This document shows positions 16,009 to 43,704 of a stretch of DNA of 45,292 nucleotides, in pieces. Below the pieces are notes generated by a model. That model did no database searches, was not told where the DNA came from, and saw nothing but the letters and a program-made list of their open reading frames with translations. Origin of the DNA: Candidatus Altimarinota bacterium (GTDB lineage Bacteria > Patescibacteriota > Gracilibacteria > UBA4473); the NCBI GenBank assembly GCA_023143095.1, contig JAGLIF010000007.1:1-45292 (forward strand), written 5' to 3'. Within the stretch, counting starts at the first letter, position 1, and every line of letters begins with the position of its first letter. The position numbers and the translations under genes are program-made.

Positions 16009-18477
16009 TTACTTCTCAGCTTCCACGATAAGTTTAGCGGCTTGACCGCGTGTAAGGTATCTGTTTGGCCAGAAGCGACCATCCGAGAATCCTTGCACCA
16101 TTTTTTGATTAAATGCGGTTAGAACCCAAAATTTTTCCCATCCAGGTGTATCAGGGAAAGGGAGGTTGGTTGGTGGTGTCCAGTCTTCTGGTTGAATTAC
16201 CCCTTTAATTGCTAATAAAATTTTTACGGCTTCTGCTCTTGAGAGATTTTGGTGAGGACGAAAGGTTTGGTCAGAATATCCGTGGATAACATTTTTCTCT
16301 GCTAAGAAATTAGCTGCTTTCGCAATTTTGGAGTTTTCATCTAAATCTCCAAATCGGTATACATTTTCTATCATTTTCCATTCTTCTCCATAAAAATATT
16401 GAGCGGACATTTTAACAAATTCTCCTCGAGTAATTTTTTGATCAGGGAGTGCATTGCCGTTTGCCGATAAAGGAAGAATAAATTGGTCAGCAAGAATTTT
16501 TAAATACCCATTGGCCCAATGATTTGTATGAAATCCGTTCCAGAAAAAATAGTCAGATGGAAGAGCTTTTTCTCGAGAACCTTCACGAATAGAGAGACAT
16601 CGTAAATCTTTATGACAAAAATCAATTTCATTTGCCAGTCCAAATAGTTCGCCTAAAAGTTCAGGGAAAGCTAAAAACAAATCTTTTTGTGCAGGAGAGA
16701 AAGGAGCGAGTGTTATTAACTTTTCAGTCTTATTTTTTTCATGAAAATTGAATTGTTGCCAAACCTTTTCATTCAAATAAAATGGTATATTTTTGATAAA
16801 TTTAGCAGTAGATGGAGGGTAGAATATTTCAGGATTTTCTAGTGCAAAAATTTCTCGCCAAAGTTCTTTTTTTGAAGTTTGTGCAAGCACATTCCTTACT
16901 GTAATGGGATTGGTTGGTTCGGAGAAGATGGAAGTTTTTATTCCAAAAGTTCGAGCAATTGAAATAAGGGCTTTTATCGATTCTTCTGAAATCAGAGATG
17001 GATCATTGAGTTTGCAGAAAGTTCTTAAAATGTGTGCTATTTTACGGGCTCCCCAGAGACGGGGAAGAAAATTTTCCAGTTCACTGTGAGTAGGAGTTTT
17101 CCCAGAAAATTCTCGACTGACAAAAAGCGGAAAAACATAAGGGGAAAAGAATTTTTGTACTAGAGGTAAAAACTCACTTTGTTTTGGATATTTTTGTTGA
17201 AAAGATTTGGCTTCAAGAGGGGGAAGTTGGGCGTTCCACTTTTCCCAAAACTCTTCTGATTCGATGAAAAAATATGGGGTACGGAATAAGTTTAAACGAT
17301 TACCGCCAGAGTGGTGAGTCAAAAGATCTAAATCGTTTTTATCAAAAGAAAAATCGAGAGTAAAAATGGGAAAATCCCATGTCTGAATGGTTTTGAGCTC
17401 ATCAGAGGAAAGAGATAAATCTTGAAAATCTCCTAAAAGCAGTACACCAAGATTTGGTGTTTTTTTAAAATTTTCTAAAATTGTAAAGATTTTTCCAAAA
17501 TCGGTTTTTTCGGTAGGTTTCGTTTGTTTAAAAATTTTGAAAAATTTTTCACGCAAGTCTTGTGAATTAGATTCAAATCCATCTGTTTTTTCTTTGATTT
17601 CTTTTTGGTTAAAAAAAATGAGTTGAATAGTTGTTGTTTTTTGGATTTTTTCTAAAAATTCTTGAAGTATGTCTCCGATTCGGTTCCAAGGAGATCCAAA
17701 AACGGATCCTGATGTATCTACTAATATCAGGATTTTTTCAAAATTTTGTGTGGGATGGTCTGTTTTTAGGTTTCCATGATAGATGGCATTAAATGCTGGA
17801 AAATTTAAGGCAGGATTTTCTGTTTCGGAAAAGAAAAAAGAAAAGTTTTCTTGAGGTATAAAATTAGTTTCTTTTTTCATCCATACGATTTGGTTTTCCA
17901 ATCGAAAACTTTTGGCGACGCTTGAAAAAATAGGTAAGAAATGGAGAATTGGACGAGGACGAATGATTGAAAGTACTAACTCAAAATTTTTGCTTAAAAT
18001 CTCATCATTTAAAAAAAGTTCGGAAAAGAAAAAATCATGTATGAAATCTAGTTTTTGTTGGTATTTGAGTTTTATTTCTACTGGTTTTTTACTTGGAAGT
18101 TCAAATGTATCGCTTACGAATGTTTTTGGCCATTTGGAGGGAGATAGTCGAAAGAATTGAACCATTTTGTGTTTCTTGGCTTTTTCAAAAAGAAAGTTTA
18201 ATTTTTTCTGACCTGTCAGTATTTCAAAATCTTTTCCATTAGCATTTACAAAAAATTGTATGTTTTGAGCTGTTGAATTTAAAGGGAAAAAATATTCCAA
18301 GTTTTGTGTGACTTCGGAATTGTTTTGAATGGTTTCGACGATTTCTATTTGAAAAATATCCTGATTGATTTCGATATGAATTTTTTGATCTAAGCGTTCA
18401 AAAATAGGGGCATCGACAAAAAAGGCAGAAATGGGATTAATCCAACAAAAACTAAGACCGAAAAAAATTTTTTTCAC
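16009..18477 (-). CDS. Exported VIT / von Willebrand A protein with C-terminal SLH domains
   Basis: 822-residue surface protein; start GTG 18477 (MKKIFFGLSFCWINPISAFF, a signal peptide of about 20 residues). Domains in order: a VIT-like beta domain (about 25-215), a vWA domain (about 246-430) opened by the metal-site motif DTSGS (254-258), a helical linker, then three S-layer-homology repeats (about 645-822) with ITRGEFVKMSAQYF, LSRAEAVKILLA and LTRGQAAKLIVEAEK. SLH repeats bind cell-wall polymers, so the protein is expected on the cell surface with its vWA domain exposed for binding. VIT plus vWA resembles inter-alpha-trypsin-inhibitor-type proteins found across bacteria. It lies downstream of the PKD/pilin operon on the same strand, but a repeat of about 120 bp separates them. 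Confidence 0.85.
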   Translation of the reverse strand: MKKIFFGLSFCWINPISAFFVDAPIFERLDQKIHIEINQDIFQIEIVETIQNNSEVTQNLEYFFPLNSTAQNIQFFVNANGKDFEILTGQKKLNFLFEKAKKHKMVQFFRLSPSKWPKTFVSDTFELPSKKPVEIKLKYQQKLDFIHDFFFSELFLNDEILSKNFELVLSIIRPRPILHFLPIFSSVAKSFRLENQIVWMKKETNFIPQENFSFFFSETENPALNFPAFNAIYHGNLKTDHPTQNFEKILILVDTSGSVFGSPWNRIGDILQEFLEKIQKTTTIQLIFFNQKEIKEKTDGFESNSQDLREKFFKIFKQTKPTEKTDFGKIFTILENFKKTPNLGVLLLGDFQDLSLSSDELKTIQTWDFPIFTLDFSFDKNDLDLLTHHSGGNRLNLFRTPYFFIESEEFWEKWNAQLPPLEAKSFQQKYPKQSEFLPLVQKFFSPYVFPLFVSREFSGKTPTHSELENFLPRLWGARKIAHILRTFCKLNDPSLISEESIKALISIARTFGIKTSIFSEPTNPITVRNVLAQTSKKELWREIFALENPEIFYPPSTAKFIKNIPFYLNEKVWQQFNFHEKNKTEKLITLAPFSPAQKDLFLAFPELLGELFGLANEIDFCHKDLRCLSIREGSREKALPSDYFFWNGFHTNHWANGYLKILADQFILPLSANGNALPDQKITRGEFVKMSAQYFYGEEWKMIENVYRFGDLDENSKIAKAANFLAEKNVIHGYSDQTFRPHQNLSRAEAVKILLAIKGVIQPEDWTPPTNLPFPDTPGWEKFWVLTAFNQKMVQGFSDGRFWPNRYLTRGQAAKLIVEAEK

Positions 18478-18527
18478 ACATTAATTTTAAATTAACAATG
18501 CTTTTGAATCAAATAATTTTTCAAACA

Positions 18528-18600
18528 CAAAATATCGTAGATCCCGTTTCAAGAACGGGAAGACATTTTTTTATTGTGAGTTTATTTATCAGTGTTTCCT
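18528..18600. repeat. Composite repeat between two surface-protein genes
   Basis: Core CAAAATATCGTAGATCC, hairpin CCCGTTTCAAGAACGGG, GAAGAC, then the end sequence TTTATCAGTGTTTCCT. Its last base is the first base of the complement of the TAA stop of the PKD gene at 18600-18602. Confidence 0.75.
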
Positions 18601-20756
18601 TATTTAATTTCAATTTCTTTAATTGTTTCAGCAATAATATTATGTTGATCAACTAGTTGAAGCTTAATTTTATAAATTCCTGGTGTTTTATAAGTATGTG
18701 TTATCGGTTTTGGATTGTATTGTTTTTGAGTGTAACCATCTCCAAAATCCCAAGAGTATTCTTTAATAAGTCCTTTGGAAGTATTGGGGTTGAATTCTAC
18801 TTCTAGAGGAGCTTTTCCTATTTTGGGGGTAAAATTGAAATCAGATTTTACAACTGGTATTCGCACAGAAACGAGAGTGTCGGTATAACTAGTTTTTCCT
18901 TTAGAAGTAAGGATTGTAAGTTTTACTGTAAAATTACCAATAGTTTCAAAAAGATATGAGATTTTTGCACCATAATGGATGGGGTCTCCGTCTGGGAATT
19001 CCCAAATATAATCTACAATTTCTCCTTCATCAACGGCTGAACCAGAACCGTCGAAGTCAACGCGAAGCGGAACTTCTCCAGCGGAAGGTTCTGTGTGGAT
19101 TTTAGCTCGAAGTCCAGATCGTTCTACTTTAACTATTTGGATTTTTTCATAGGTTTTTTCATCAGCATCGATAATTATGAGTTTAACTTCATAGATGCCG
19201 GCTTTTCGGAAGGTATGTTTTACCGCCTTGGAAAATTCATCAATAATTCCATCATTTTCAAAATCCCACTGCCACTCAAAAGCGTTTCGAATTTCAGATT
19301 TAGAAGAATCGAAAGAAACATCAAAAGGGACAACTCCGTAAAGGATTCCATCTTTATTTGTTGTGGCAGGTGTTGTTCTGATAAAAAGATTAGCTTTGGA
19401 ATTATCAGGCGAAACTTTAATTGTCTTTGTAATTTTATTTCGTTCCCCTAAGTCATTTTGAACAGTGAGGGAAACTTCATATTCGCCTGGATTTCTAAAA
19501 ACACGCTGCAATTTTCTTCCTGTAAAAGGTTCAGTGTCACCAGTTACAAACCATTCAAATCTAGTGATTTGTCCTTCTTTTACAAAAGAATTAGAACCGT
19601 CAAAAGAAAGTTTTAGTGGAGCATATCCTTCAAATGATCCATCGGCAGTGATTTCTGCACGGAGACTTCCTTCTGGGTTTTTTACATTAATAATGGTTTC
19701 AACAACATCAAAGTCATGGTTTGATCCCGTAACACGAAGTTGAACTTTGTATTCACCGAATTGAGTAAAAATTTTTTCAACAGATGGTGTTTCTTGTCGA
19801 ATTTCAAACTCACCATCTCCGTCTAAATCCCATTCGTAAAGAATAATTTCACCATCAGGATCACGAGATTCAAGAGCGTTGAATTCAACTTTAAGTGGAA
19901 ATGGTCCAGAGTCTGGAGAGGCGATAAGAGAAGCGAGTACTGATTCATTTGAAATAATAACCAATTTTTTCGAAAGAAAAGAAACCTCTTTTACTTCTTT
20001 TTCTGAAAAATAGGAAACATTGGCCGTTACTGGAAATCGTCCACCGTTTTCGCCTTTGTCTAAAAAACGATGTGTTACTTTTGGACCAGAACCATCAACA
20101 ATATTATCTCCGTTAAAATCCCAATTAATTTGTCGGATTAATTCTGGATTAATGTTTGCAAAAAGTTGTTCGCCTATATCAAAACTGATTTGTATTGGAG
20201 CACTTAACCCAACAACATTAGAAGGCTCAGTATTGATCAAGGATTCATCATCTGTTTGTACTATTTCTCCATGAAGCGTAGAAATAAACCAAAAAAAGAA
20301 AACCCAAATACCGCAAATAGAAACAAACAGTAAGGAATAAAGTCCTGCTTTTGCAAAAATGGTTTTTCGGTTAATAGCATCTTTATCTGTCATTAATCCT
20401 TGGAAGAGGAAAATGAGAGACAAGATGAGTAATATAAGTGCTAACAGGCCGAAAATAGCATTGGTCATTGTTTGCAATAAACTTTTAAGACCAAGGGCTT
20501 TTATGCCAAGTGTTTCAAAAAGAGGATTTGATACATTTCCACTAACAGTACCCCAAAAGACGAGACCATAAAAAAGAGCTAAAAGAACAAAACCAATACC
20601 TAAAATTCCTAAAAGAAAAGTTTGTGGTCGCATTTTTTTTATTTTCTGTTGCGGCTGTTCAGCCTTTTCTTTTTTTATCGAAACATTTTTATCTTCCTTT
20701 TTTTGTGGAAAATTTGGATTGATAGAATCGTTGTTTGGTAAGTTTTCTTCTAGCAT
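18600..20756 (-). CDS. Membrane-anchored protein with about six PKD domains
   Basis: 718 residues, last gene of a four-gene minus-strand operon. The N-terminal 45 residues are charged and probably cytosolic. Three membrane helices follow (about 46-70, 97-119, 134-160). The rest is outside the membrane and made of about six PKD-type beta domains (from about 185 to the end). Each has the diagnostic WDF.GDG or WDLDGDGE-like strand and a VTLT/VKLxI final strand (for example ISFDIG...INWDFNGDN, YEWDLDGDGEFE, YSWDFGDGYTQ). PKD domains are protein- or glycan-binding spacers. The stop codon is shared with a dispersed repeat. The gene upstream ends 65 bp away. No catalytic domain is seen. A structural part of a cell-surface machine is likely; that is inference from context. 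Confidence 0.82.
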   Translation of the reverse strand: MLEENLPNNDSINPNFPQKKEDKNVSIKKEKAEQPQQKIKKMRPQTFLLGILGIGFVLLALFYGLVFWGTVSGNVSNPLFETLGIKALGLKSLLQTMTNAIFGLLALILLILSLIFLFQGLMTDKDAINRKTIFAKAGLYSLLFVSICGIWVFFFWFISTLHGEIVQTDDESLINTEPSNVVGLSAPIQISFDIGEQLFANINPELIRQINWDFNGDNIVDGSGPKVTHRFLDKGENGGRFPVTANVSYFSEKEVKEVSFLSKKLVIISNESVLASLIASPDSGPFPLKVEFNALESRDPDGEIILYEWDLDGDGEFEIRQETPSVEKIFTQFGEYKVQLRVTGSNHDFDVVETIINVKNPEGSLRAEITADGSFEGYAPLKLSFDGSNSFVKEGQITRFEWFVTGDTEPFTGRKLQRVFRNPGEYEVSLTVQNDLGERNKITKTIKVSPDNSKANLFIRTTPATTNKDGILYGVVPFDVSFDSSKSEIRNAFEWQWDFENDGIIDEFSKAVKHTFRKAGIYEVKLIIIDADEKTYEKIQIVKVERSGLRAKIHTEPSAGEVPLRVDFDGSGSAVDEGEIVDYIWEFPDGDPIHYGAKISYLFETIGNFTVKLTILTSKGKTSYTDTLVSVRIPVVKSDFNFTPKIGKAPLEVEFNPNTSKGLIKEYSWDFGDGYTQKQYNPKPITHTYKTPGIYKIKLQLVDQHNIIAETIKEIEIK

Positions 20757-20821
20757 TTTGGGAATATATTTATTTCTTTTACTTTTACTTTATTCTTTTA
20801 GAAAAAAAGAAAAAGAAGTCT

Positions 20822-23800
20822 TTAATAATTTTTTTCTTGAATTTTAATGATAAGGCTATCGGAAATAGTAGAAATTCCGTCAGAAACAGTTAATCGTAAA
20901 GTATGAAGGCCTTCTCTTTTGAATTGAAGAGTTATGTTTTGTCCAGATCGTTTAATTTCTCTTCCAACTTCCCATTCAAAAAACAAAGGTTTATCAGATG
21001 AATGCTGCAATCTTCCATAAAAGAAGAATTTTGTATTAACAGTTCCAGTAATATCAGCAAAAACAAAGGCATCATTTTCTGGATCAGGATTGCTTTCTAT
21101 ATTTGATAATTGTATATCTATTTGATCTAATTGTAGTTGTAAAAGCCTTTGTTTTTCTGGATCTGTTTCTTTTTCAAGCTCTTTAAGTTTTTGATTTCTG
21201 ATAAATTCTAACCGTTCTTTAGACCATTCGTTTTTTGCAAAAAAAGGATTGGAACCTAGTTTTTTTAATTCTTCATTGATTTGATTGATCTCTTCTTGTA
21301 AGAGTCTTCGTTTTTCTGGATCTGTTTCATTTTCTAAGTTGGCCTGTTTTTTTTCTAAAACCTCCTTTAATTGTATTTCGATAAGAGAATCGAGTCCTTT
21401 TTTCATAAAACTGGTAAGTTTTTTATTTAATCCTAATTCCTCATTGATTTGATCAAGTTCTTTTAGTAGTTGTTTTCGTTTTTCTGGATTTGTTTCTTTA
21501 TTTAGTTCTGCTTCTTTTTTTGTTTTTAATTGTTCAAGAATTTGAGATTGTTTCTTCAATGTTGAAGGAGTTGTATTACTATTTTGATTATTGACTAATG
21601 GTTTCAATTCGGATTCTATCTGTGCAATTTCGTCTAGTAAAGACTGATATTTTGCAGGATCAGTTTCTGTAGCTAATTGGAATTCTTTTTCTTTTATTAA
21701 TCCATTTAATTCAGATATTTTATTTTTAATTGCAGAAGAATTTAATTCAGAAGCAACGATTTCAAGTGTTTTAATTTCGTTATCGATAGCGTTTATTTTT
21801 TGTTGAATTTCTTTTCTTGCCTCTGGGTTAGATTCTTCTTGAAACATTTTCAAAAGGTCTTCTTTATCTTTTTTAAGTGCTTGGATAGTTCCTTTTATAG
21901 ATTCTGCTTTGAGAGAAAAAGGAGTTTCTGAAATTTTTTCTAAACTTTTATTAAGTTCATCAATTTCTGCTTGAAGAGCATTTTGTTCTTCTGTTGTTTT
22001 GCTAGCTGAAAGTTGTTCTTGTTTTTCTTTTAGAGTATTTTCAAGAATATCTTTTAATGGTGAACTAAAAGGATCGTAGCTATCAATCATCTTTTCAGAA
22101 GAAACAATGCCTAATTGCAAAAGGTCTCCTTGGGAGATATTTTCTTTTTGAGAGGTTGTTTCAATTGCTAAAAGGGGAGCTAATTCTTTTTCTAGTTGAT
22201 CAAGTTCTTTTGATAAAATTTTATATTTTTCAGGATCAGTTTCATTGTTCAATTGAGCTCTTTTATTTGCTATTGATTCATTTAGTTTATTGATGGTTTC
22301 TATTGTATCAATTATAGTGATACTTACAGTATCTGTGGCGGTGAATTCTCCGTCAGAAACAGTAACATTAACAGTATAGATTCCTGGTTCAGAATATTTG
22401 TAAGAAGCATTTTTTATGTATAGTTTCCCACCGTCGCCCATATCCCAAGAATAAACTAGATAATCATTATTAGGATCAGTAGTCTCTGGGAAAAATCTAA
22501 AAACAGTATTGATACTTCCTTTATTGTTACTTTCGTTGATTTGAATGATTGGAGCTAGATTTTCTTCAGGAGGAGGTGCATTTGGATCAACTTCTGTTAC
22601 TGTTATCGAAATAGAATCTTTTGCGGTGAGTTCCCCGTCAGAGACATTGGCGGTTACAGTATAAGTACCAGGTTTATCGTATTTGTGAGAACTAGATTGT
22701 CCGTAGGATTTAAATCCATCACCCATTATCCAAACAAAATCTAAATTATCATTGTTTGGGTCTGAGGTGTTGAGGAGGAAACGAAAAAGAGTATTAGTAT
22801 CTCCTTGTTTTTGAATTTCATTAATCTTAATAATTGGAGGCAGATTTTCGTCGGTTTTTTTCTCTGTTATTGGTTTGTTTAATTCGTCTATTTTATCAGT
22901 TGAATCAGTTTCTTCTACTTTAATGGTTATGTTATCTTCGGTAACAAGTTCTCCGTCTGAAACTTTAACATTAACAGTATAGGTTCCTGGTGTTGCGTAT
23001 TTGTATGCTACATTTTGTATATACATTTTTCCACCATCGCCCATATCCCAAACATAAGAAAGATAGTCATTGTCAGGATCAGTAGCGTCTAAATAGAAAG
23101 AAAAAAGAGTAGAAGTATTTCCAATGGTTTTATTTTCTCTAATTTGTGCTGTAGGGGCTTGATTTCCTTCAGTTGCAGTTGTTTCACCAGTTGTTTTATC
23201 TTCCGAAATGGTTATATCCATAGAAGCTTCTGTTTCATCGATACCATCAGAAACTTTTAATTTAACTGTAACTTTTCCAGTTTCAGTGAATTTTTTTGAG
23301 ACATTTTGAGTAAACTTTTGTTCTCCATTAGGGAATGTCCATTCATATTGTAAATAGTCATTATCGTCATCAGAACCTTTTCCATAAAATAAAAAAGTAG
23401 TGTCGAGATTTCCTAGATTACTTGGGGAAACTTGAATATAGGCTGTTGGAGTAGCATTTTCCATATTGCTTGTCACTTCTAGTACATTGTCAGAAATTTT
23501 TACTGTTTGTCCGCCTGAATTATCAACAATGGTTACTTTAAAAGTATAATAATGTTTTCCAGCGGTTTGAGATAAATTAAAAATAGCGTTATCAACAGTT
23601 GTGATTTGAGCAAATTTAGTACTAGCGTTTTCTATTACTTCAAAACGGTATTGTTCAATTTTTCCGTCAATATCATTGGCATCGACAGAAACGGTTACAC
23701 TTAGTGCTCCTAAAGTGGGATCTTTTTTAAATTTAATAGAGGTTATTTTAGGAGGAGTATTTTCCATTATAACTGTTACTGTTTCTTCATCTTTACTATT

Positions 23801-24328
23801 AGATTCGCCTTTTTGAGAAGCGATAAGTTTTATTGAATATTTGCCTGCTTTTGTTATGGCGTAAGGAAGTTGTTCACTTGTATAACTTTGTCCGTTTACT
23901 ATCCAAGAAATATTAACATTTTTGGTTTGTCCTTCTTTATCAAATGATTCTGAAGAAAAATTGATAGTTTGATCGGCTGTTATGTAAATAGTTTTCGAAA
24001 GTGTATCCTTACCATCTACAGATACTTTTAAGATAGCAGTTGGTATTCCATCGTTTGTAACATAGATAGGTTTCTTAACAGTATTTTCTCTTGTTCCAGA
24101 TGAAACCTTTAGAGTAACTTCGTTTTTTCCTGTTTTGTTGAAAATATGTTCAACTGTAGGACCATATTTAGTTTCTCCATCAGGGAATGTCCATTCAAAA
24201 TTAGTGGCATTTGGACTATTGGCTTTAAAGGTTGCGACTTTTCCTTTTACAACAGAATAAACAGAAGCAGCTTGAGCAAGATTGCTAAAGAGACAAGATA
24301 GAACACAAAAGAATAGAAGTTTTTTCAT
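20822..24328 (-). CDS. Giant secreted PKD protein with coiled-coil hairpin repeats
   Basis: 1168 residues with a clear signal peptide (MKKLLFFCVLSCLFSNLAQA). About seven PKD-like beta domains follow (roughly 20-680), with NFEWTFPDGE, YEWTFPNGEQ, YVWDMGDGGK, FVWIMGDGFK and YSWDMGDGGK. Residues about 685-1065 are helical: seven related units with the pattern ETDPEK-x-LL-x-ELDQI-x-EL, each a likely helix-turn-helix hairpin. One last PKD-like domain closes the protein (about 1075-1168). No membrane helix or cell-wall signal is visible after the signal peptide. It sits between a pilin-like/PKD protein and the membrane-anchored PKD protein, 22 bp and 65 bp away. A rod or stalk is plausible, but no enzymatic role can be read. 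Confidence 0.82.
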   Translation of the reverse strand: MKKLLFFCVLSCLFSNLAQAASVYSVVKGKVATFKANSPNATNFEWTFPDGETKYGPTVEHIFNKTGKNEVTLKVSSGTRENTVKKPIYVTNDGIPTAILKVSVDGKDTLSKTIYITADQTINFSSESFDKEGQTKNVNISWIVNGQSYTSEQLPYAITKAGKYSIKLIASQKGESNSKDEETVTVIMENTPPKITSIKFKKDPTLGALSVTVSVDANDIDGKIEQYRFEVIENASTKFAQITTVDNAIFNLSQTAGKHYYTFKVTIVDNSGGQTVKISDNVLEVTSNMENATPTAYIQVSPSNLGNLDTTFLFYGKGSDDDNDYLQYEWTFPNGEQKFTQNVSKKFTETGKVTVKLKVSDGIDETEASMDITISEDKTTGETTATEGNQAPTAQIRENKTIGNTSTLFSFYLDATDPDNDYLSYVWDMGDGGKMYIQNVAYKYATPGTYTVNVKVSDGELVTEDNITIKVEETDSTDKIDELNKPITEKKTDENLPPIIKINEIQKQGDTNTLFRFLLNTSDPNNDNLDFVWIMGDGFKSYGQSSSHKYDKPGTYTVTANVSDGELTAKDSISITVTEVDPNAPPPEENLAPIIQINESNNKGSINTVFRFFPETTDPNNDYLVYSWDMGDGGKLYIKNASYKYSEPGIYTVNVTVSDGEFTATDTVSITIIDTIETINKLNESIANKRAQLNNETDPEKYKILSKELDQLEKELAPLLAIETTSQKENISQGDLLQLGIVSSEKMIDSYDPFSSPLKDILENTLKEKQEQLSASKTTEEQNALQAEIDELNKSLEKISETPFSLKAESIKGTIQALKKDKEDLLKMFQEESNPEARKEIQQKINAIDNEIKTLEIVASELNSSAIKNKISELNGLIKEKEFQLATETDPAKYQSLLDEIAQIESELKPLVNNQNSNTTPSTLKKQSQILEQLKTKKEAELNKETNPEKRKQLLKELDQINEELGLNKKLTSFMKKGLDSLIEIQLKEVLEKKQANLENETDPEKRRLLQEEINQINEELKKLGSNPFFAKNEWSKERLEFIRNQKLKELEKETDPEKQRLLQLQLDQIDIQLSNIESNPDPENDAFVFADITGTVNTKFFFYGRLQHSSDKPLFFEWEVGREIKRSGQNITLQFKREGLHTLRLTVSDGISTISDSLIIKIQEKNY

Positions 24329-24333
24329 TTTTA

Positions 24334-24350
24334 TTTTTTCAGTGTTTCTT
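24334..24350. repeat. End-sequence-like repeat between two operon genes
   Basis: TTTTTTCAGTGTTTCTT resembles the end sequence TTTATCAGTGTTTCCTT. It fills most of the 21-bp gap between the PKD gene start (24328) and the preceding TAA stop (24350-24352). With only partial identity, descent is uncertain. Confidence 0.4.
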
Positions 24351-25972
24351 TAAGGGGTAATTTCAAAATCAACAGAAAGGGTTGTTTGTACTTCTTGAGT
24401 TTGTTCAACAGAATCTGATTTGAGAGTTTGTCCATTAACTAATTGTGTGACAATAAGTTCAATGTTTTTAACGCCTTCAGTAATAAATTCATGAGTGAGG
24501 GTTGAGTTAGCACTTGTTTTAGGAATGCCATTAATAGTCCATTTGTAATAAAGTGAATTACTTTCTCCATAAATATTTTCACTCTTGCTAGCATCAAAGA
24601 TGTATTCACCAGGTTTGTTAGTGTTTTTGGTAGAACGAATGACAAAGTCGGCAGATGGTTTATCACTAAGTATCGTGATAGTTTTAGAGGTTTTTCCAGA
24701 GACAGTAACTGTATTTTCTACTTCAAGTGAAACTTCATAAGTTCCAGCTTCTGAGAAAGTAACAGCGATAGTTTTTCCAGTAACTTCACTAAAGCATCCA
24801 TTTCCACCTGAACAAGTCCATTTGTAATTACTAATGGATCCGATACTGGTTCTAGAAGAGGCGGCATTAAGGGTAATAGAATCACCAACTGTAGTGGAAG
24901 TTTTACTTGCAGTAAGAGTGGCGGTTGTTCCTCCAACAATAAGTGTTTTCTGGAAGGCATAGGTTTGTCCATCTATACCTTTAGTAATACTTCGAAGAGA
25001 ATATGTTCCTTCTTTCCCGTAAGCATGGTTGGCTGTAGGTGTTGATGAGCTTAAAATAGCCATTAGACCGTCACCAAGATCAATTTTAGAATCTCCTTCA
25101 ATGCTCATTCCAATAGTGACACCAGCAAGAGCGCTTTCAAGAGAAATTACAGAGGTATCAGCGAAGTTTTGAACATCACCTCCAGAAATGGTGATACCAT
25201 TTTGGAAAGAAAAAAGATCTTCTACTGAAACATCACCAGCTTTACCACCAGTATTATTGAAACCACCAGCACCGCCAGTATTATTAAAACCACCAGTACC
25301 ACCAGTATTATTGAAACCACCAGCACCGCCAGTATTATTGAAATCACCAGCACCACCAGTATTATTGAAACCACCGGCACCACCAGTATTATTGAAATCA
25401 CCAGCACCACCAGTATTATTGAAACCACCGGCACCACCAGTGTTATTAAAACCACCGGTACTACCAGCACCGCCAGCACTTCGATCATCTCCGCCAGATC
25501 CAGCTTGAGTAAGAAGTGTGTTTACGAGTGCAAAAGAAATCAAAATAATAATGATTCCAATAACAGCATATATAATAATTTTTTTAGATTCTTCGATTTT
25601 ACTATCTTCTCCAAGTGCGGTTACATATAGGTATCCAGCATAAATTATGGCGGCGGTTGCGATAAGGCCAAGAAAAGATAGTGTAAAATTTAAAACATTG
25701 AGAATAAATCCTCGAGCAGATGTATTATTTCCAATTTGATTGAATTTCCCTGGAGCAGGTAAGACAAAAGAGCCATCTGGTCCAACTCCTTCTCCAGTTA
25801 GGGAGTCCCAAGCATCCTCAAAAGTATTACCAATTGTATCAATTTGATTAGCGGTTTCTAATGTTGATTTGGCAAAGTTAGAAATGGAATCAAGAGTTCC
25901 AGCAAACGATGGAGTAGTGATAAAAAAGCAAGAAAGGAGGACAAAAGCGATACCAAGAGCGAATTTTTTCAT
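24350..25972 (-). CDS. Pilin-like (TrbC/VirB2-type) membrane protein with Gly/Asn repeat and PKD domains
   Basis: 540 residues. A signal peptide (MKKFALGIAFVLLSCFFITTPSFA) is followed by a two-helix hydrophobic hairpin (about 89-118 and 131-154) of the kind named T4SS pilin or Mbov_0395-type. The connecting loop has GYLYVTALGEDSKIEESKK. Next are eight 9-residue repeats built on GGFNNTGGA (about 170-244), which may be a flexible linker. Then come two or three PKD-like beta domains (about 265-535). The loop and second helix closely match the next upstream protein, so the two are paralogues in their hairpin part. A pilin-type hairpin carrying a long extracellular adhesive tail is unusual. Start ATG 25972, 34 bp after the upstream gene. 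Confidence 0.82.
   Translation of the reverse strand: MKKFALGIAFVLLSCFFITTPSFAGTLDSISNFAKSTLETANQIDTIGNTFEDAWDSLTGEGVGPDGSFVLPAPGKFNQIGNNTSARGFILNVLNFTLSFLGLIATAAIIYAGYLYVTALGEDSKIEESKKIIIYAVIGIIIILISFALVNTLLTQAGSGGDDRSAGGAGSTGGFNNTGGAGGFNNTGGAGDFNNTGGAGGFNNTGGAGDFNNTGGAGGFNNTGGTGGFNNTGGAGGFNNTGGKAGDVSVEDLFSFQNGITISGGDVQNFADTSVISLESALAGVTIGMSIEGDSKIDLGDGLMAILSSSTPTANHAYGKEGTYSLRSITKGIDGQTYAFQKTLIVGGTTATLTASKTSTTVGDSITLNAASSRTSIGSISNYKWTCSGGNGCFSEVTGKTIAVTFSEAGTYEVSLEVENTVTVSGKTSKTITILSDKPSADFVIRSTKNTNKPGEYIFDASKSENIYGESNSLYYKWTINGIPKTSANSTLTHEFITEGVKNIELIVTQLVNGQTLKSDSVEQTQEVQTTLSVDFEITP
25243..25460. repeat. 27-bp tandem repeat array, eight units, in coding sequence
   Basis: Units encode GGFNNTGGA on the minus strand, two of them GDFNNTGGA, in an alternating order (GG, GG, GD, GG, GD, GG, GG, GG). 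DNA units differ by a few silent changes. The copy number is likely to vary by slippage. Confidence 0.85.
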
Positions 25973-26006
25973 TTGAATGATTTATTTTTGTTTTTAGTTT
26001 TTAGTT

Positions 26007-27437
26007 TTAAAAAGCGGCTTGCATAACTGTGTTTACTATGGCATAAGCGCTTAGTATAGCTAAGATTCCGATTATAACCCAGAGAATAATTTTTTTGGCT
26101 GTTTCGATTCGACCGTCGTCTCCAATAGCAGTGACATATAAAATTCCAGCCCATACGATGGCTAAAACTGCCATAAGTGCAGCAATAGGTAATAGGAATA
26201 AGGTCCAACCAATTATCAGCATTTTTAAATCTCGTTCTTTCGAAATATTATTATCCAGATACATTTCTGTGGTGTTTGCTCCACCATAAAGTCCATCACC
26301 GTCAAAGATTGGAGCAGTGAGATATGGAGTTGCACCTTCTTCTAACATCATTTCTTCTAAAATTTCTTCTTCTAAAACGATAGCTTTGCCAGTCTTTTTC
26401 TTTTTTGTGCAAGCTTCTTTTTTCTCTTCGCCAGAAGCTTTATCACAAGCAATCACTTCTGCACTATTTGCATAAGTTTCTGCTTTGGTGATTAGCTCCT
26501 CATTAAGTTTATGTGTCATTCCAAGACTATTGAAAAGATAATCAATTTTTGGTTGTACTTTTTTTTCCTCAGCTACTGTTAGGGCTTCTTTGTATATAAT
26601 TTTTGGTATAAGGGTTATATTATCTTCCGAATTTGCATCCTTGATTTCATCAATAAGTAAATTAATATCGTCTGTTACCTCAGTTAGATCTTCTCTACTT
26701 CGAATTTCAAATTCACGGTCTTTAAAATCATAATATAATTGCTTGAAGTCATTCCGATTTTTCTCTAGTGTTTCCCAATTTGTAACTACTTTATTTATAT
26801 CAACATTCATATCAGCAACAGCATCATTAACTTCTTTGTTTTGGTCTATTATATCATCCTTGGCATCTTCCTGTTGTTCTTTTATGTCTTTTAATTGTTT
26901 ATTTGCATCTTCTAGACACTTAGCTTGATTAGGTTTACCTATACAAGCTGCCATAGCGGCCTTAATATTTTTTGCTTCAGTGTCTAATGAACCTAGCTTA
27001 TCTTCTGCTTGTTTTAATTTTTCCACTTCTTCATCTGCTGTTTTATCTGCTGCGTCATCTTCTTTAGTTTTAACTTCCTTGAATTCACCTTTTTTTGTGG
27101 TAAGTTGCTTCTGTAATTTCGTTTTTTCAGCACTTGCGTCTGTAATATCTCCTTGTATTTCGGTTAGTTCTTTATTTAGAGAAATGAGTTGGTTTGCACG
27201 ACTAGGATTTCCTTTTTTTATTTCTTCTTCAATGGTTGTTATTGTTGCGGTTATCGTTGTTTTTTTAATTGTTAATTCTTTTATTTCATTTTCTTGATCT
27301 AAAATGTCAATATTTATTGAATGAATATCGTCGTCTATATCATCGGCTGTATCACTCCAGAACCAGGCATTTGTGTTTTCTGAAATAAACAAAGAGAAGG
27401 TAAGTATTAAAATTGCAGAAATAAATAGTTTTTTCAT
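26007..27437 (-). CDS. Secreted coiled-coil protein ending in a pilin-like two-helix module
   Basis: 476 residues, first gene of the operon. Signal peptide (MKKLLFISAI-like start, cut near NTNA at 24), then about 230 residues of strongly charged coiled coil (about 30-260) with CIGKPNQAKCLED inside, and a further helical part to about 390. The end carries the hydrophobic hairpin (about 400-430 and 445-472). Its linker and second helix, AGILYVTAIGDDGRIETAKK onward, match the hairpin of the next gene product. Here the module is C-terminal, whereas in the neighbour it is N-terminal. Four cysteines may form disulfides outside the cell. A surface filament or anchoring role is inferred from the module and the operon. 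Confidence 0.8.
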   Translation of the reverse strand: MKKLFISAILILTFSLFISENTNAWFWSDTADDIDDDIHSINIDILDQENEIKELTIKKTTITATITTIEEEIKKGNPSRANQLISLNKELTEIQGDITDASAEKTKLQKQLTTKKGEFKEVKTKEDDAADKTADEEVEKLKQAEDKLGSLDTEAKNIKAAMAACIGKPNQAKCLEDANKQLKDIKEQQEDAKDDIIDQNKEVNDAVADMNVDINKVVTNWETLEKNRNDFKQLYYDFKDREFEIRSREDLTEVTDDINLLIDEIKDANSEDNITLIPKIIYKEALTVAEEKKVQPKIDYLFNSLGMTHKLNEELITKAETYANSAEVIACDKASGEEKKEACTKKKKTGKAIVLEEEILEEMMLEEGATPYLTAPIFDGDGLYGGANTTEMYLDNNISKERDLKMLIIGWTLFLLPIAALMAVLAIVWAGILYVTAIGDDGRIETAKKIILWVIIGILAILSAYAIVNTVMQAAF

Positions 27438-27523: not shown

Positions 27524-27680
27524 AAGGAAACACTGACAAAAAAATTCGCAACAAAAAAATGTCTTCCCGTTCTTGAAACGGGATCTACGATATTTTGTGT
27601 TCCTTGTTATTATGAAAAAAAGACAGAGATCCTGAAACAAGTTCAGGACGACAATCGATTCGTTCAGAAAGACAGTTTAT
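27524..27680. mobile_element. Composite repeat, best complete copy in the window
   Basis: Order of parts: end sequence AAGGAAACACTGACAAA (27524-27540), hairpin CCCGTTCTTGAAACGGG, core GGATCTACGATATTTTG (27581-27597), hairpin GATCCTGAAACAAGTTCAGG, then a tail with TTCAGAAAGACAG. The copy at 1-103 has the same order and ends in the inverted form of the end sequence, so a full unit would have terminal inverted repeats. Here the right end is missing, cut by the purL-like gene end at 27686. Confidence 0.65.
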
Positions 27681-27685
27681 TAAAT

Positions 27686-28723
27686 TTAAAAAATTTCTCT
27701 GAGACAATTTTCCCAAAGCGTTTTATATTCTGCTAGGTTGTTTTCAAAAATAACCTTGTTTTTATGTGTTATTAGCAGGTCAAAGTCTTTGGTTGTTTTG
27801 CCTATTTCAATGGCTTCTTCTCCAAAAATTTCTTTAATTTTATCTGGGTTGGAGGTGCTGATTATGGCGCCAAGATCTTCCGCAAACAAAAACTGTGGAA
27901 CGGCTTGATCAGCAGGAATATCTATTTGTACACCGATGTTTTTTTCAAAGGTGCTTTGACACAATGCAGCAAAGAGACCGCCTCTCAAAATAGGATTGGC
28001 AACTGAAACAATATTTTCGTTAGCAGAAATTCGGAGTCCTGAGCATAGTTTTTTAAGTTTTTTATAATTTGTCTCTGGGACATGAGAGTCTTCTTGTTTA
28101 AATAATCGTAAAAATTCAGAACCTCCCAAGTTTTGTGAGCGGGAACCTATTACGAAAATGGTTTCTTCCGTTTTTTGAAAACCAATTTGTGGGACAGTTC
28201 TTGGATTGTCTATTCGTCCAAAAACAGAAATGATAGCACTTGGGGGAATAGATTTTTTGGCACATTCATTGTAAAGGGATACATTTCCCGAAACGATAGG
28301 GATATGAAGGGTTTCACAGGCGTTTTTTACTCCTTCAATGCCTAAAACAAGATCTCCCATTTGATCTGGTTTTTCTGGATTTCCAAAATTAAGACAGTCT
28401 GTGGCTGCCAACGGGATTCCTCCTGTGCATGCAATATTTAATACGGCTTGCGCTATGGCATTTTCTGCAGCGTCTTTTGCTGATATTTTTGCAAGATTTG
28501 TGTTTCCTCCAATACCGATAACTACAGCAATTTGAGAAGATTTTTCGTCTAATTCTGGGAAATCTCTAAAACAAGTTGTAATAGAAGCGGCAACTTTGCC
28601 TCGTTCATGTACGGTATTTCCTTGAACATTTTTATCATAGGTTTCATAAATCGGTTTTTGGCTCGCTACATTGGGGGTGTTCAATATTTTTTCAAAAGCG
28701 AGAGAAAGGGGGATTTTTTTCAT
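27686..28723 (-). CDS. C-terminal half of phosphoribosylformylglycinamidine synthase (PurL-like)
   Basis: 345 residues matching only the second half (second AIRS-like N and C domains) of PurL, normally about 730-740 residues. Telling stretches: NTPNVASQKPIYETYDKNVQGNTV, AENAIAQAVLNIACTGGIPLAATDCLNFGNPEKP, PIVSGNVSLYNE, and GGLFAALCQSTFEKNIG. PurL makes formylglycinamidine ribonucleotide in purine synthesis; in solved PurL structures the working site is in the first half and the second half binds a structural ADP. No first half is found in the 250 bp upstream, and the ATG at 28723 is natural. It may be a half-gene partner encoded elsewhere, a repurposed protein, or a remnant. No other purine gene is in the window. 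Confidence 0.8.
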   Translation of the reverse strand: MKKIPLSLAFEKILNTPNVASQKPIYETYDKNVQGNTVHERGKVAASITTCFRDFPELDEKSSQIAVVIGIGGNTNLAKISAKDAAENAIAQAVLNIACTGGIPLAATDCLNFGNPEKPDQMGDLVLGIEGVKNACETLHIPIVSGNVSLYNECAKKSIPPSAIISVFGRIDNPRTVPQIGFQKTEETIFVIGSRSQNLGGSEFLRLFKQEDSHVPETNYKKLKKLCSGLRISANENIVSVANPILRGGLFAALCQSTFEKNIGVQIDIPADQAVPQFLFAEDLGAIISTSNPDKIKEIFGEEAIEIGKTTKDFDLLITHKNKVIFENNLAEYKTLWENCLREIF

Positions 28724-28796
28724 TATTTTCTTTGGTAGTAGATTACCAGAAAAAATTTATTCAACAAAATTTTATTTTTCATACTTATTTCTCCCC

Positions 28797-28851
28797 AGTT
28801 CGAACTGTATGTTCCCCAAGTTCGAACTTTATGTTCTCTCCAGTTCGAACT
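28797..28851. promoter_or_regulatory. Three spaced copies of the palindrome AGTTCGAACT
   Basis: Copies at 28797-28806, 28819-28828 and 28842-28851, 22 and 23 bp apart (about two helical turns). They lie between the purL-like start (28723, minus) and the peptidase-like start (28980, plus), which suits an operator array for one or both genes. The binding protein is unknown. Confidence 0.55.
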
Positions 28852-39974: not shown

Positions 39975-40913
39975 ATGCCAGATGTAACAAAAAAATATAG
40001 GAAAGAGCTTGATAAAATCAAAAATCTTTTAAAAAAAGTTGGTTTTAATAACAAGCACAATACTGACTTAACCGCTTGGGCTATTCTTGCTTTGCAAGAT
40101 GAAAAACCAAAACAGACAAAAATTGGTTTTGGCTCTCTTGCGGAAGGTGCAAGTATCCGAGATCTATTAGATTTTTGTCGTGAATGCGGTACAAACTATG
40201 CAGAAAATACTCGGGAGAGTGTAAGAAAACATAGTATAAAATATCTTGTTGAAGCCCATATTGTTATTAGAAATCATGATGATCCTGGTCGCCCTACAAA
40301 TTCAGCAAAAACGAACTATATTTTGAACAAAGAATTTTTAAAAATTATTAATGCAACACAAGGTCAAAAAAAGCTCATTGCTGATTGGAACAAAAAATAT
40401 TCAATCATGGATCCAACGAATAATTGGAGAAAGGATAAATCTCTAAAAGTTTCATTTGAAGAATATATCTACCAAGTGCATCCTTCACCACATAATTTTT
40501 TATCAAAAATAGCAGTAGAAAATTTTCTTCCTGCCATATCAGAGAATTTTAAAATTATATATTTTTCTGATACGGATGATAAATCTCTTCATACAACAAA
40601 TACTCTTGATAATTTTATGAAATCAAAATTTGATGTTCATAAACAAGTGCCTGATGTGATTGCATATGATGATAAAACAAAAACATTATTTTTCATAGAA
40701 GCGATTGCCTCATCAGGAGAAATAAACGATCTGAGAAAAAAAGAAATTGATAAGCTCTTCCCGATAGACTCCAAAATAAACAGATGTTATGTGAGTGTTT
40801 TTATGAATCGTAAAGAATTTCGAAAATTTAGTGATTCCATTGCGAATGGAACAGAAGTTTGGATTGTAGATAAAGTGCTTCACACCATCACTTTTCGAGA
40901 ACTCAAAATATAA
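39975..40913 (+). CDS. BsuBI/PstI-family type II restriction endonuclease
   Basis: Predicted to cut unmodified CTGCAG-type sites; the specificity is inferred from the family. 312 residues from ATG 39975; an in-frame TTG at 39966 is less likely. A helical N-terminal part (to about 120) is followed by GQKKLIADWNKKY and the C-terminal nuclease domain: VPDVIAYDDKTKTLFFIEAIASSGEI (225-250), holding the PD and EA residues of the active site, then RKKEIDKLFP, INRCYVSVFMNRKEFRKFSDSIANGTEVWIVDKVLHTITF. The run of conserved stretches from ADWN to HTITF is the pattern of this family. The 3' end overlaps the convergent methylase gene by 34 bp. Arg codons are mixed, unlike the CGA-rich ribosomal genes. 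Confidence 0.85.
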   Translation: MPDVTKKYRKELDKIKNLLKKVGFNNKHNTDLTAWAILALQDEKPKQTKIGFGSLAEGASIRDLLDFCRECGTNYAENTRESVRKHSIKYLVEAHIVIRNHDDPGRPTNSAKTNYILNKEFLKIINATQGQKKLIADWNKKYSIMDPTNNWRKDKSLKVSFEEYIYQVHPSPHNFLSKIAVENFLPAISENFKIIYFSDTDDKSLHTTNTLDNFMKSKFDVHKQVPDVIAYDDKTKTLFFIEAIASSGEINDLRKKEIDKLFPIDSKINRCYVSVFMNRKEFRKFSDSIANGTEVWIVDKVLHTITFRELKI

Positions 40914-42454
40914 TCGGATTCTTCGGCAGATAATTCATACGATTGATGAATTATTTTCTCCAGTCGTTTTTCATCTATTTTCCCTCTTTCATAGTTTTCT
41001 AAACTTTCAATATTGTGAGGTATTGGAAAAATACGAATTTCCTTTGCAGAAACTTGAGTATTTCCATTGATAAGACGAAATAATTTGTCCCATAGCTGAC
41101 TGTTCAAAAGCAACTCCATTACTTTTAGCGAAGGAGCTTTTTCAGTTTCTCGTTTCATAAAATTAAGATGATTTTCTAAAAAATAACCATTTTTACTTTT
41201 AGGAATGAGTGCTCCCTCAATTCGACGATTTTGCTCTTTTGCAGAAATTCTTTTAAACGCCAATACTTCTTCATATAACTTTTCTGATTTTACCTCCTCT
41301 GAATCCATCATTTTTTCACTTCGTTTATTTTGTTTTTTGTTTGGTTCAAATCCAAATGAAGTAATATTGTGAGACCAATAAAGAGGTCTATATTGTTGTT
41401 TTTCCTTTTCTTGAAAATATTGTTTTCTTCGATACGCCACGATTTGACCTGTTGATACTTTTAATCCTGAATTGTGGATTTTTGTGAATCCATTTTTAAA
41501 ACATTTATTTATAAGATTGATATCCGATTCATGTGAGGGAATACACATAATATCCTCATCCCAAAAAACAATGCTAAAAGCTGATAGAAATTTTTTAATT
41601 TTAAATTCTCCATTTGTGAAGGCGACTCCAACAGTAATATCTTTAAAATTAGGCTCTCTATTTTCTAGCGTAAGTAAAACTTGTTCCTGTAAAACATCAC
41701 TAAAAGCCTTGTCTCTTTCATAGAGGGTAATAACTTCTTTTGTAAGAACTCTTTTTGAAAGAATTTGTCGTAATCTTGCAAAATAAGTCCCTGAAACAAA
41801 ACTTTTAGGAATAATAAATCCAAGCTTTCCTCCTTTTTTGAGATAGTTAATTCCTACTTCTACAAAAGAAGCATATAAATTGGGATGTCCTAAATTTTTC
41901 TTTGGCGTTGCTTTTAGATATGGGGGATTTCCTAAAATACAATCAAACTCATACTTTTTACCGAATAATCCTACTCCATTTTCAAGAGAGTTTTGTACTG
42001 AAATATTAAACATCGTATTTAATTGGATTTGATACCCCTCTCTTGCCAAAAATGATCGAATATTTGCGAGAGTTATTCTTACCAGTGCCGAATCAATATC
42101 AAATCCAAAAACTTGTTCTTGTATTTCTTGTAATTCTTTTTTTTCAGCAATCATTTTTTCTAAAACCACTAGTAAAAATCTTCCACTTCCGCAAGAAATA
42201 TCTGCAACAGTTTGATTTGATTTGTATTTTGTTGATTCAATTAAGTAATTTACAATTGTTTGAGGAGTAAAAAATTGTCCATTTTTTCCTTTATATTCTT
42301 TTGAAATAACCTGAGAATAATAATCTCCTAAGCTATCCCACTTTGCAATATCAAAGGGAATATCCATAATTTTTCTTGCACCTACAACCCCATTTACCGC
42401 TTCAAACGATTCACAAAGTTCATTCCAGTACTGTAAATTGTAATTTTTAGACAT
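40880..42454 (-). CDS. N6-adenine DNA methyltransferase of the PstI/BsuBI-type system
   Basis: Protects the host site by methylating adenine. The start is placed at ATG 42454 (MSKNYNLQYWNELCESF), because this overlaps the lexA-like stop in ATGTCTAA; the longer in-frame start at 42517 would lie deep inside that gene. 524 residues. Motif I DISCGSGRF (85-93) binds S-adenosylmethionine, motif IV is NPPY (176-179), and the order I then IV marks the gamma class. GQFFTPQTIVNYLI (59-72) is typical of Eco57I/TaqI-like enzymes. A C-terminal target-recognition part follows. The gene is convergent to the restriction gene with a 34-bp overlap and downstream of the LexA-like repressor in one operon. It ends in TGA. 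Confidence 0.88.
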   Translation of the reverse strand: MSKNYNLQYWNELCESFEAVNGVVGARKIMDIPFDIAKWDSLGDYYSQVISKEYKGKNGQFFTPQTIVNYLIESTKYKSNQTVADISCGSGRFLLVVLEKMIAEKKELQEIQEQVFGFDIDSALVRITLANIRSFLAREGYQIQLNTMFNISVQNSLENGVGLFGKKYEFDCILGNPPYLKATPKKNLGHPNLYASFVEVGINYLKKGGKLGFIIPKSFVSGTYFARLRQILSKRVLTKEVITLYERDKAFSDVLQEQVLLTLENREPNFKDITVGVAFTNGEFKIKKFLSAFSIVFWDEDIMCIPSHESDINLINKCFKNGFTKIHNSGLKVSTGQIVAYRRKQYFQEKEKQQYRPLYWSHNITSFGFEPNKKQNKRSEKMMDSEEVKSEKLYEEVLAFKRISAKEQNRRIEGALIPKSKNGYFLENHLNFMKRETEKAPSLKVMELLLNSQLWDKLFRLINGNTQVSAKEIRIFPIPHNIESLENYERGKIDEKRLEKIIHQSYELSAEESDYILSSRKVMV

Positions 42455-43055
42455 TTGATATTTCATAAGAATAAACTCCTTTAACCACTCCCTCCACTCG
42501 AAAATCTTCATTTGCAACGAATGGTGGATATTTAGAATTTAAAGAAACTAAAATAACCCCATTTTCTTTTTGAATTTTTTTTATCAAAGTTTCTCCATTA
42601 TTCACACAGACAACAATACTTCCATTATCAGCATGATTTATTTTTCTTGCAATTACTAAATCTTTTTCATGAATTCTTGGAGTCATAGAGTCTCCCTTTG
42701 CTTTTACCATAAATGCTTCTGAAGAAGGGAATCCCAAAATTTTTGAGGAAATAGGAACTCTCTCAATTGGATCTCCATCAAAAACAGATCCGTTTGGACC
42801 ACATTGAGCAAGTCCGTATAAATTTAAAAATGTAACTTGTTTATCTGGAGATTCTGCCAAAATTTGATAGTCTTTAGGATTTAAAGGATTTCGTCTTAAA
42901 TATCCTTTTTTTTCAAGTTGTTTAATGTGATGTTGCACAACACTTGGGGAAGAAACTTCCATAATTTCTTGAATTTTTCGAACAGAAAGTGGTTCATCAC
43001 TATTTTTTTTTAAGATTTCCAAAAGCCTTTTTTGTGCAGGATGAAGTTCTTGCAT
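42447..43055 (-). CDS. LexA-like self-cleaving repressor (S24 peptidase)
   Basis: 202 residues. N-terminal winged helix (about 1-65) with LHPAQKRLLEILKKN and SPSVVQHHIKQLEKKGYL, as in LexA. The C-terminal S24 domain has a cleavage bond at C85-G86 in GLAQCGPNG, catalytic S123 in KGDSMTP and catalytic K159 in GETLIKKI. Cys-Gly replaces the Ala-Gly of LexA, as in UmuD, so it should still be cleavable when RecA is activated. It may be the cell's LexA or a defence-island copy. The methylase start lies inside its last codons (8-bp overlap), so the two are probably translated together. The promoter and an operator-like inverted repeat lie directly upstream. Confidence 0.88.
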   Translation of the reverse strand: MQELHPAQKRLLEILKKNSDEPLSVRKIQEIMEVSSPSVVQHHIKQLEKKGYLRRNPLNPKDYQILAESPDKQVTFLNLYGLAQCGPNGSVFDGDPIERVPISSKILGFPSSEAFMVKAKGDSMTPRIHEKDLVIARKINHADNGSIVVCVNNGETLIKKIQKENGVILVSLNSKYPPFVANEDFRVEGVVKGVYSYEISNV

Positions 43056-43176: not shown

Positions 43177-43704
43177 ATGAATATGACAGAAATAATAATC
43201 AATTTTTATGGTAGTCCTCCTTTTACGGTTTTTAGTGGAATAATCGCAACAATTTTTGTTTTAGGAGTTATTTATAAAATAATTTCTTGGTTTTTCGGAA
43301 TAACACCAGTTGTTTTTAGATTGGGAATTGCTTTATGGAAAAGAGAAATAGCTATTTTTAGCTCTCTTGAACTTTTTGAAAGTTTGAAATCTGCTCTTGT
43401 TGATTCAAAAATATTTAAAGAGAAAAATATTGTTCGTATAGGGAAGGAAAATACTGAAAAAGCAAAAAATAAAACGGTTTTCTTGGTTGATTGGGAAACT
43501 TTTGGAGAGGATATAGAAACTGTTTTTAGTTCAAGAAAAAATCACCAAACAGCAATTATAATTTATGCAAAACCTCAAAGCATTCCTCATGATAAAATGA
43601 ATGATATTGCAAATCGTCCAAATACGGTTGTTGTAAATTTCAGAGGAAGATTACTAAATGATATTTTAACTTCACTTATTACAACCAGTTATGATAAAAG
43701 ATAA
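43177..43704 (+). CDS. Membrane-anchored putative CBASS effector, unrecognised alpha/beta domain
   Basis: 175 residues. A hydrophobic helix at about 14-41 (FTVFSGIIATIFVLGVIYKIISWFFG) is followed by a short second hydrophobic or amphipathic stretch. The remaining 120 residues alternate strands and helices: KTVFLVDWETF, a helix, TAIIIYAKP, a helix, NTVVVNFRG, and a last helix. This is a Rossmann- or receiver-like order, but I see no motif of known CBASS effectors. The CD-NTase start overlaps its end by 14 bp (43691-43704), so the two are coupled. By analogy with other CBASS effectors it may disturb the membrane when it binds the cyclic nucleotide; that is inference. ATG 43177 or 43183 could both be used. 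Confidence 0.6.
   Translation: MNMTEIIINFYGSPPFTVFSGIIATIFVLGVIYKIISWFFGITPVVFRLGIALWKREIAIFSSLELFESLKSALVDSKIFKEKNIVRIGKENTEKAKNKTVFLVDWETFGEDIETVFSSRKNHQTAIIIYAKPQSIPHDKMNDIANRPNTVVVNFRGRLLNDILTSLITTSYDKR

Follow-up and report, generated by a model that had tools for sequence, protein, structure and literature searches.

Separate Genes for the Two Halves of Small PurL: A Putative Split FGAM Synthetase Conserved in Eleven Related Genomes

The PurL second-half gene and its surroundings

The stretch of DNA analyzed here, referred to as the window, comprises 45,292 nucleotides and corresponds to contig C9 of a 1.2-Mb genome that is 97.4% complete; its features of interest are collected in Table 1. 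A preliminary description of the window had noted a stand-alone second half of PurL, and an ORF of exactly the expected extent is found, beginning with ATG, ending with TAA and free of internal stops. In what follows we call this gene the C-half. It matches the small PurL model TIGR01736 at positions 380-717 of 718 (E 5e-70, 236.6 bits) and NF002290 at positions 389-722 of 723 (E 8e-72), all 7 of the NCBIfam families listed for it are of the PurL type, and both the AIRS and the AIRS_C domains are recognized. A chance match to PurL is excluded. The models for PurM (TIGR00878), HypE, SelD and ThiL give no match at E 0.01, which rules out that the C-half is one of these related proteins. An AlphaFold2 model of the C-half, computed from a 34-row alignment with a pLDDT of 93.3, superposes on residues 386-723 of Thermus thermophilus PurL (3viu) with a Z score of 38.3 over 330 residues (rmsd 2.0), and on residues 628-993 of Salmonella PurL (1t3t) with a Z score of ∼31.

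Table 1. Features in the window and on other contigs, with coordinates, strand and basis of assignment
Feature	Coordinates	Strand	Basis
purL C-half gene (345 aa, A2-B2 half of small PurL, FGAM synthetase)	27686..28723	-	ORF, profile match, AIRS + AIRS_C domains, AlphaFold2 model
Codons of C-half residues 145-152, SGNVSLYN, including G146, N147, S149	28268..28291	-	Identity across split and one-piece PurLs
Codons of C-half residues 108-110, T-D-C, including D109	28394..28402	-	Identity across split and one-piece PurLs
Two terminator-like hairpins (27629-27649, 27565-27583), downstream of C-half, before pilin-like gene	27565..27649	-	Consensus scan only
Three 18-nt copies around palindrome AGTTCGAACT	28789..28851
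T4SS-pilin, PKD-repeat, S-layer/VIT gene run	16009..27437
CBASS-type oligonucleotide cyclase-like gene near adenine DNA methyltransferase-like gene	43691..45034 and 40880..42517		E 3e-31 and E 3e-30, both under cut-off
PurQ	L082:1575-2810 (G000:C8)		TIGR01737 188 bits, above cut-off 177.8
Tailed PurQ running on into PurC + PurE (Magasanikbacteria)	L098:12821-15487		PurC + PurE by eye

The C-half is flanked on one side by pilin- and PKD-type genes and on the other by a metallopeptidase-like gene (a weak match) and a nucleotidyltransferase-domain gene, beyond which lies a frame that we read by eye as mutS. None of the 16 distinct ORFs of the window that were scanned besides the C-half is a purine gene, as had been stated at the outset. 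The C-half and the pilin-like gene are separated by a gap of 248 bases that contains the terminator-like hairpins of Table 1, and this gap together with the hairpins argues against co-transcription of the two genes in the window; 5 terminator-like sites are counted over both strands of a 1,701-base stretch, as compared with a mean of 1.2 (sd 1.2) in shuffled sequences.

Several other elements of the window deserve mention in their own right. Between the C-half and the divergent metallopeptidase-like gene lie three 18-nt copies, at a spacing of 22-23 nt, around the perfect palindrome AGTTCGAACT, which is also present elsewhere in the genome, as two copies 22 nt apart in L001 and as single copies in L089 and L191. 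The pilin/PKD part of the run of T4SS-pilin, PKD-repeat and S-layer/VIT genes recurs beside the C-half in relatives. Toward the end of the window the cyclase-like and methyltransferase-like genes, each of which matches its model under the cut-off, form a possible defence island.

A separate first half and the distribution of the pair

The question of whether a first half and other pur genes are present, raised in the preliminary description, can be answered from the genome itself. An AIRS_C domain search of the 97.4% complete genome yields four loci, HypE, PurM, an N-terminal half of PurL (N-half) and the C-half, and therefore no full-length PurL. The N-half is located on contig C5 as an intact 444-aa frame that starts from TTG (an internal ATG would give ∼427 aa), carries the FGAR-AT linker domain and matches TIGR01736 with 384 bits, so that two genes of one genome together cover this model at positions 1-376 and 380-717. 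Both miss the cut-off of 525.75 bits for single-chain small PurL, the C-half falling far under full-length cut-offs because only half of the protein is present; neither half-chain alone is a complete PurL. PurM is a separate gene (225 bits to TIGR00878, below the cut-off of 236), and PurF, PurD, PurQ, PurE, PurC, PurB and PurH are found as well; the initial PurE match carried a flag for internal stops, yet its gene is an intact ORF of 133 aa.

Among the 60 nearest genomes, the one containing the window included, a free C-half is present in 11, at 43-57% identity to our copy, and a free N-half occurs in exactly the same 11, at 69-75% identity. Thus the 10 relatives, too, carry the first half as a gene of its own, the two halves are always both there or both absent, and all 11 genomes belong to a single family, f1. 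The preliminary description had left open a split enzyme on the one hand and another job in purine or signalling chemistry on the other. It is the former that these data bear out; the latter is unsupported, given that the motifs of the PurL second half are kept and that the N-half co-occurs. A full purL elsewhere in the genome together with a lack of half-length homologues would have spoken against a split enzyme, and neither is the case. The halves reside on different contigs or else on one contig at a distance of 11.4 kb (G010, where both are on the same strand with pilus-type genes in between) or 263 kb (G018).

Eight of the remaining nine family f1 members sampled (G001, G002, G004, G006, G007, G013, G014 and G015) have a longer PurL type, with frames of 974-1275 aa, in place of the split form, and the ninth, G009, has none. 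This replacement in relatives of the same family suggests that FGAM synthase types have been exchanged within it. Outside the family, PurL of the small type is in one piece wherever it occurs among the rest of the 60 genomes (760-905-aa frames), except for three, G020, G022 and G054, in which PurL is cut by contig ends.

Wider surveys gave a similar distribution. Of 353 genomes of the class 183 matched and, among the matches listed, an unbroken free C-half is confined to the same 11, setting aside contig-end cases, two broken longer genes (G290 and G239) and three short PurL frames of 510, 586 and 643 aa (G348, G305 and G351, respectively). Short C-half frames in G307 and G337 are likewise cut by contig ends, and a 5' contig end truncates the loci L101, L118, L135 and L169. 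In G290 (L194) and G239 (L197) the longer PurL type is interrupted close to the same N/C joint, giving two neighboring frames that overlap, probably through frameshifts or sequence errors, and G239 additionally has an 828-aa frame with a C-half elsewhere. In an evenly drawn sample of the phylum 78 of 379 genomes matched, with the free form in our genome only. Finally, the best 80 of 587 related stretches from named genomes include the free form twice, in Candidatus Gracilibacteria bacterium Tobar13m-G49 and uncultured bacterium RB_MAG_00020, both of which are among the 11 split genomes, while the other 78 read on upstream for 110-758 aa. We have found no earlier report of a PurL divided between its two halves in the openly licensed literature, an absence that is weak evidence.

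Recurring neighbors accompany both halves. A relative of the pilin-like gene adjoins the C-half in at least 7 of the 10 other split genomes (G010, G011, G012, G016, G017, G018 and G019), its mechanical frame overlapping that of the C-half in G012 and G018, and the metallopeptidase-like gene has a relative close to the C-half in at least 5 of the 10 (G003, G011, G012, G017 and G018); these counts are lower bounds, several flanks being short, and the neighbor names in relatives were mostly read by eye. The N-half of our genome adjoins an RmuC-like gene; G003, G011, G017 and G018 have a relative of this gene close to their N-half, and several split genomes have pilus-type genes there. In G011, G012, G017 and G018 PurQ and a frame reading as PurH lie within a few kilobases of the N-half.

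One might ask whether a one-piece gene has simply been mis-assembled, or whether a recoded stop codon joins the two parts. PurL is, after all, cut by contig ends in 3 of the 60 genomes, and the copy in G041, a member of the class, contains many in-frame TGA codons. In the split genomes, however, the halves are internal to contigs and have flanks of their own, with neighbors that recur in several genomes, and two of these genomes correspond to public records of different projects. Moreover, the N-half ends in TAA, TAG or TGA depending on the genome, and therefore recoding does not join the halves. The internal contig positions, recurring flanks and differing stop codons speak against both an assembly break and a recoded stop, and we regard an artefact of either kind as highly improbable.

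Break site, retained residues and divergence

In order to locate the break we fitted the split halves, as fragments, into an alignment of 13 one-piece PurLs. The end of each N-half and the beginning of each C-half fall within a linker whose length also varies among the one-piece proteins, and not a single conserved column is lost, in keeping with the clean start at the inter-half boundary that had been described earlier. Approximately 21-24 residues follow the last conserved PurL segment in the N-halves and, counted from the assumed start codons, approximately 12-17 residues precede the next conserved segment in the C-halves. Split inteins are able to join proteins that are encoded far apart, and in principle the halves could be ligated after translation into one PurL chain in this manner. 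Remnants of the linker as short as these leave too little space for intein halves, given the assumed starts, although in G010 and G019, where the open frame extends 73 aa upstream of the assumed C-half start, the argument rests on the choice of start codon. We consider rejoining by an intein the least probable of all the explanations weighed here.

Residues H69, Y72, E117, S118, H119, N120, R140, D141, D304 and E347-T348-Q349 of the N-half are invariant across all 11 split and all 13 one-piece PurLs compared, and the same is true of D109, G146, N147 and S149 of the C-half, which keeps the signature of the PurL second half, TDCLNFGNPEK and SGNVSLYNE. Exceptions are found at H121, beside the catalytic motif, which is Ser in 3 of the 11 split sequences and replaced in 2 of the 13 one-piece sequences, and at residue 271, which is Gln in our N-half and Glu in the 10 other split N-halves and in all 13 one-piece proteins. 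The conserved set in the two halves presumably includes residues for catalysis and for binding of Mg, ATP and substrate, and in the C-half the Asp, Gly, Asn and Ser are spaced accordingly; from the annotation of small PurL we take D109, G146-N147 and S149 to join the ATP/Mg/substrate site. The preliminary description had assigned the working site to the missing half, and this stands only in part. One account of PurL places the synthetase site in domain 1 as proposed and the ADP site in domain 2, and describes a hydrophobic barrel formed between the two duplicated halves (PMC3815217).

The invariance of these motifs also bears on a scheme in which a PurM-like homodimer of the N-half is functional by itself and the C-half is left to serve some other function, for example as a nucleotide-binding sensor. 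The halves are homologous, PurM of the same fold is a free-standing enzyme, a structural search with the C-half model also picks up the first half of T. maritima PurL, and the C-half sits in a conserved pilin/PKD neighborhood away from pur genes, all of which can be cited in favor of such a scheme. Yet the C-half retains its second-half signature, has in none of the 11 genomes been seen without a free N-half, and evolves at a rate relative to the N-half that is close to that of one-piece PurL. We therefore think an N-half homodimer unlikely.

The rate comparison derives from pairwise distances. The C-half is more divergent than the N-half in split and one-piece PurLs alike, with mean C/N distance ratios of 2.43 and 2.11, respectively, slightly higher in the split pairs. 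Over the 11 genomes the N-half and C-half distances are correlated (r 0.81, permutation p 0.0001), a correlation that could arise from shared ancestry by itself. Unrooted trees of each half set the 11 split sequences apart from the 13 one-piece sequences with support values of 1.000 and 0.999, and therefore a single fission is the simplest account. In the three closest pairs the C-half has a dN/dS of 0.09-0.13; the value is 0.19 for our genome and G005, with two further pairs not computable as dS is saturated; dS is high throughout the closest pairs and, because it is near saturation (pS 0.64-0.73), the ratios are only rough. The C-half is under purifying selection.

It is difficult to reconcile these numbers with a C-half that is the decaying remnant of a broken purL, even though the gene no longer adjoins its partner and its divergence is ∼2.4-fold that of the N-half. 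Its frame is open in all 11 genomes, at identities of 43-57% to our copy, dN/dS is low and the motifs are invariant, one-piece enzymes show a similar C/N ratio and the genome has no other source of a second half. Open frames, low dN/dS and invariant motifs speak against a pseudogene, in agreement with the earlier view that this is not a simple decayed remnant, and decay is very unlikely as an explanation.

A putative two-chain FGAM synthetase and the PurQ tail

We propose that small PurL is naturally split here into a two-chain FGAM synthetase, with the C-half as its second subunit, and place the probability of this reading at roughly 0.87. In one-piece PurL the tandem PurM-like halves A1-B1 and A2-B2 pack together; here they would be two proteins, an N-subunit of 444 aa (∼427 aa from the ATG) consisting of the linker domain and A1-B1, and a C-subunit of 345 aa consisting of A2-B2. 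The two would assemble as a pseudo-symmetric heterodimer resembling the PurM dimer, which may serve by analogy as a model for the packing of the halves, and the pair would convert FGAR to FGAM in an ATP-dependent manner with ammonia supplied by PurQ. Fission probably occurred once, in an ancestor of part of family f1, at the linker between the duplicated halves.

The closest known relative is the small PurL (smPurL, TIGR01736/NF002290) of the PurS-PurL-PurQ FGAM synthase, as exemplified by the T. thermophilus (3viu) and T. maritima (2hs0/3d54) proteins, with which the present system shares sequence along both halves, active-site motifs, the predicted fold of the C-half, the pathway context and a PurQ glutaminase subunit (Table 1). 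It differs in comprising two genes at separate loci, in a PurQ with a C-terminal extension and in that a stand-alone PurS was not found: a search with PF02700 that was positive in 12 of 14 controls gave no match in our genome or in the other 10 split genomes. Large PurL of the Salmonella/E. coli type likewise contains a region that superposes on the C-half model, as described above, but unites N-terminal, synthetase and glutaminase parts in a single chain of ∼1,295 aa. Members of the PurM superfamily (PurM, HypE, SelD, ThiL) resemble the C-half in fold, as free-standing A-B units; unlike them, the C-half is recognized as the second half of PurL, and the genome encodes PurM and HypE separately. 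There is precedent for an expected pur gene occurring in two ORFs, PMC3261824 listing one purC of Methanosarcina barkeri and purP of T. gammatolerans. The M. barkeri purC is described there as two adjacent loci in one species, whereas the PurL halves are far apart and conserved in 11 genomes.

What appears to be new, then, is a known enzyme, small PurL, encoded as two genes. PurL is held to stem from gene duplication followed by fusion (PMC5919458), and a conserved natural undoing of that fusion would offer a direct test case, predicting that the halves can do without the old joint and are workable as a PurM-like heterodimer. There is a practical aspect as well. Because each half scores far under the curated cut-off, annotation may record PurL as missing or truncated in these genomes, and purine auxotrophy may be called even though the pathway is present.

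The PurQ proteins are unusually built. PurQ is 407-453 aa long in the nine sequences analyzed, of which eight come from split genomes, with a tail of roughly 150-200 aa C-terminal to a glutaminase of 240 aa; tailed forms are seen in our genome and in the relatives L083-L087, L090, L094, L095 and L100. The tail consists of two repeats of one another (profile-profile probability 93.5%, E 2e-7). Similarly long PurQ frames are found in relatives with one-piece small PurL, the tail sequence being seen in G027, L098 and L100, and therefore the tail probably predates the fission.

The tail may replace PurS, as a fused PurS pair. In a model of a relative's PurQ, built on a two-row alignment (mean pLDDT 44.9), it is predicted to form two beta-alpha-beta-alpha-beta units that fit PurS at low confidence. 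A Pfam search of 6 tails gave no PurS match at E values up to 10, a profile search of the PDB returned two chance-level matches only, and a fold search with the PurQ model placed glutaminases in the best rows, with PurS absent among the 50 matches shown. Compared with a profile of 35 PurS sequences the repeats match weakly (E 0.006 and 0.008, probability 5-6%), whereas the same PurS set gives far stronger matches (E 6e-6 and 4e-5) to the N-terminal domains of the longer PurLs, which counts against the tail being PurS; the tail itself matches those N-terminal domains poorly (E 0.014 and 0.22).

The putative PurS assignment of the tail is one element of a more elaborate scheme, a rewired FGAM synthase in which an obligate N + C heterodimer would be completed by PurS as a tandem pair on the PurQ C-terminus (N + C + PurQ-SS), and in which the C-subunit, heading the conserved pilin/PKD surface-protein run, would tie assembly of the purine synthesis complex to a surface/attachment program. 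We view this scheme as improbable as a whole. The tailed PurQ can also be part of a larger polypeptide: in the Magasanikbacteria locus of Table 1 it runs on into what we read by eye as PurC and PurE, all within one frame of 889 aa.
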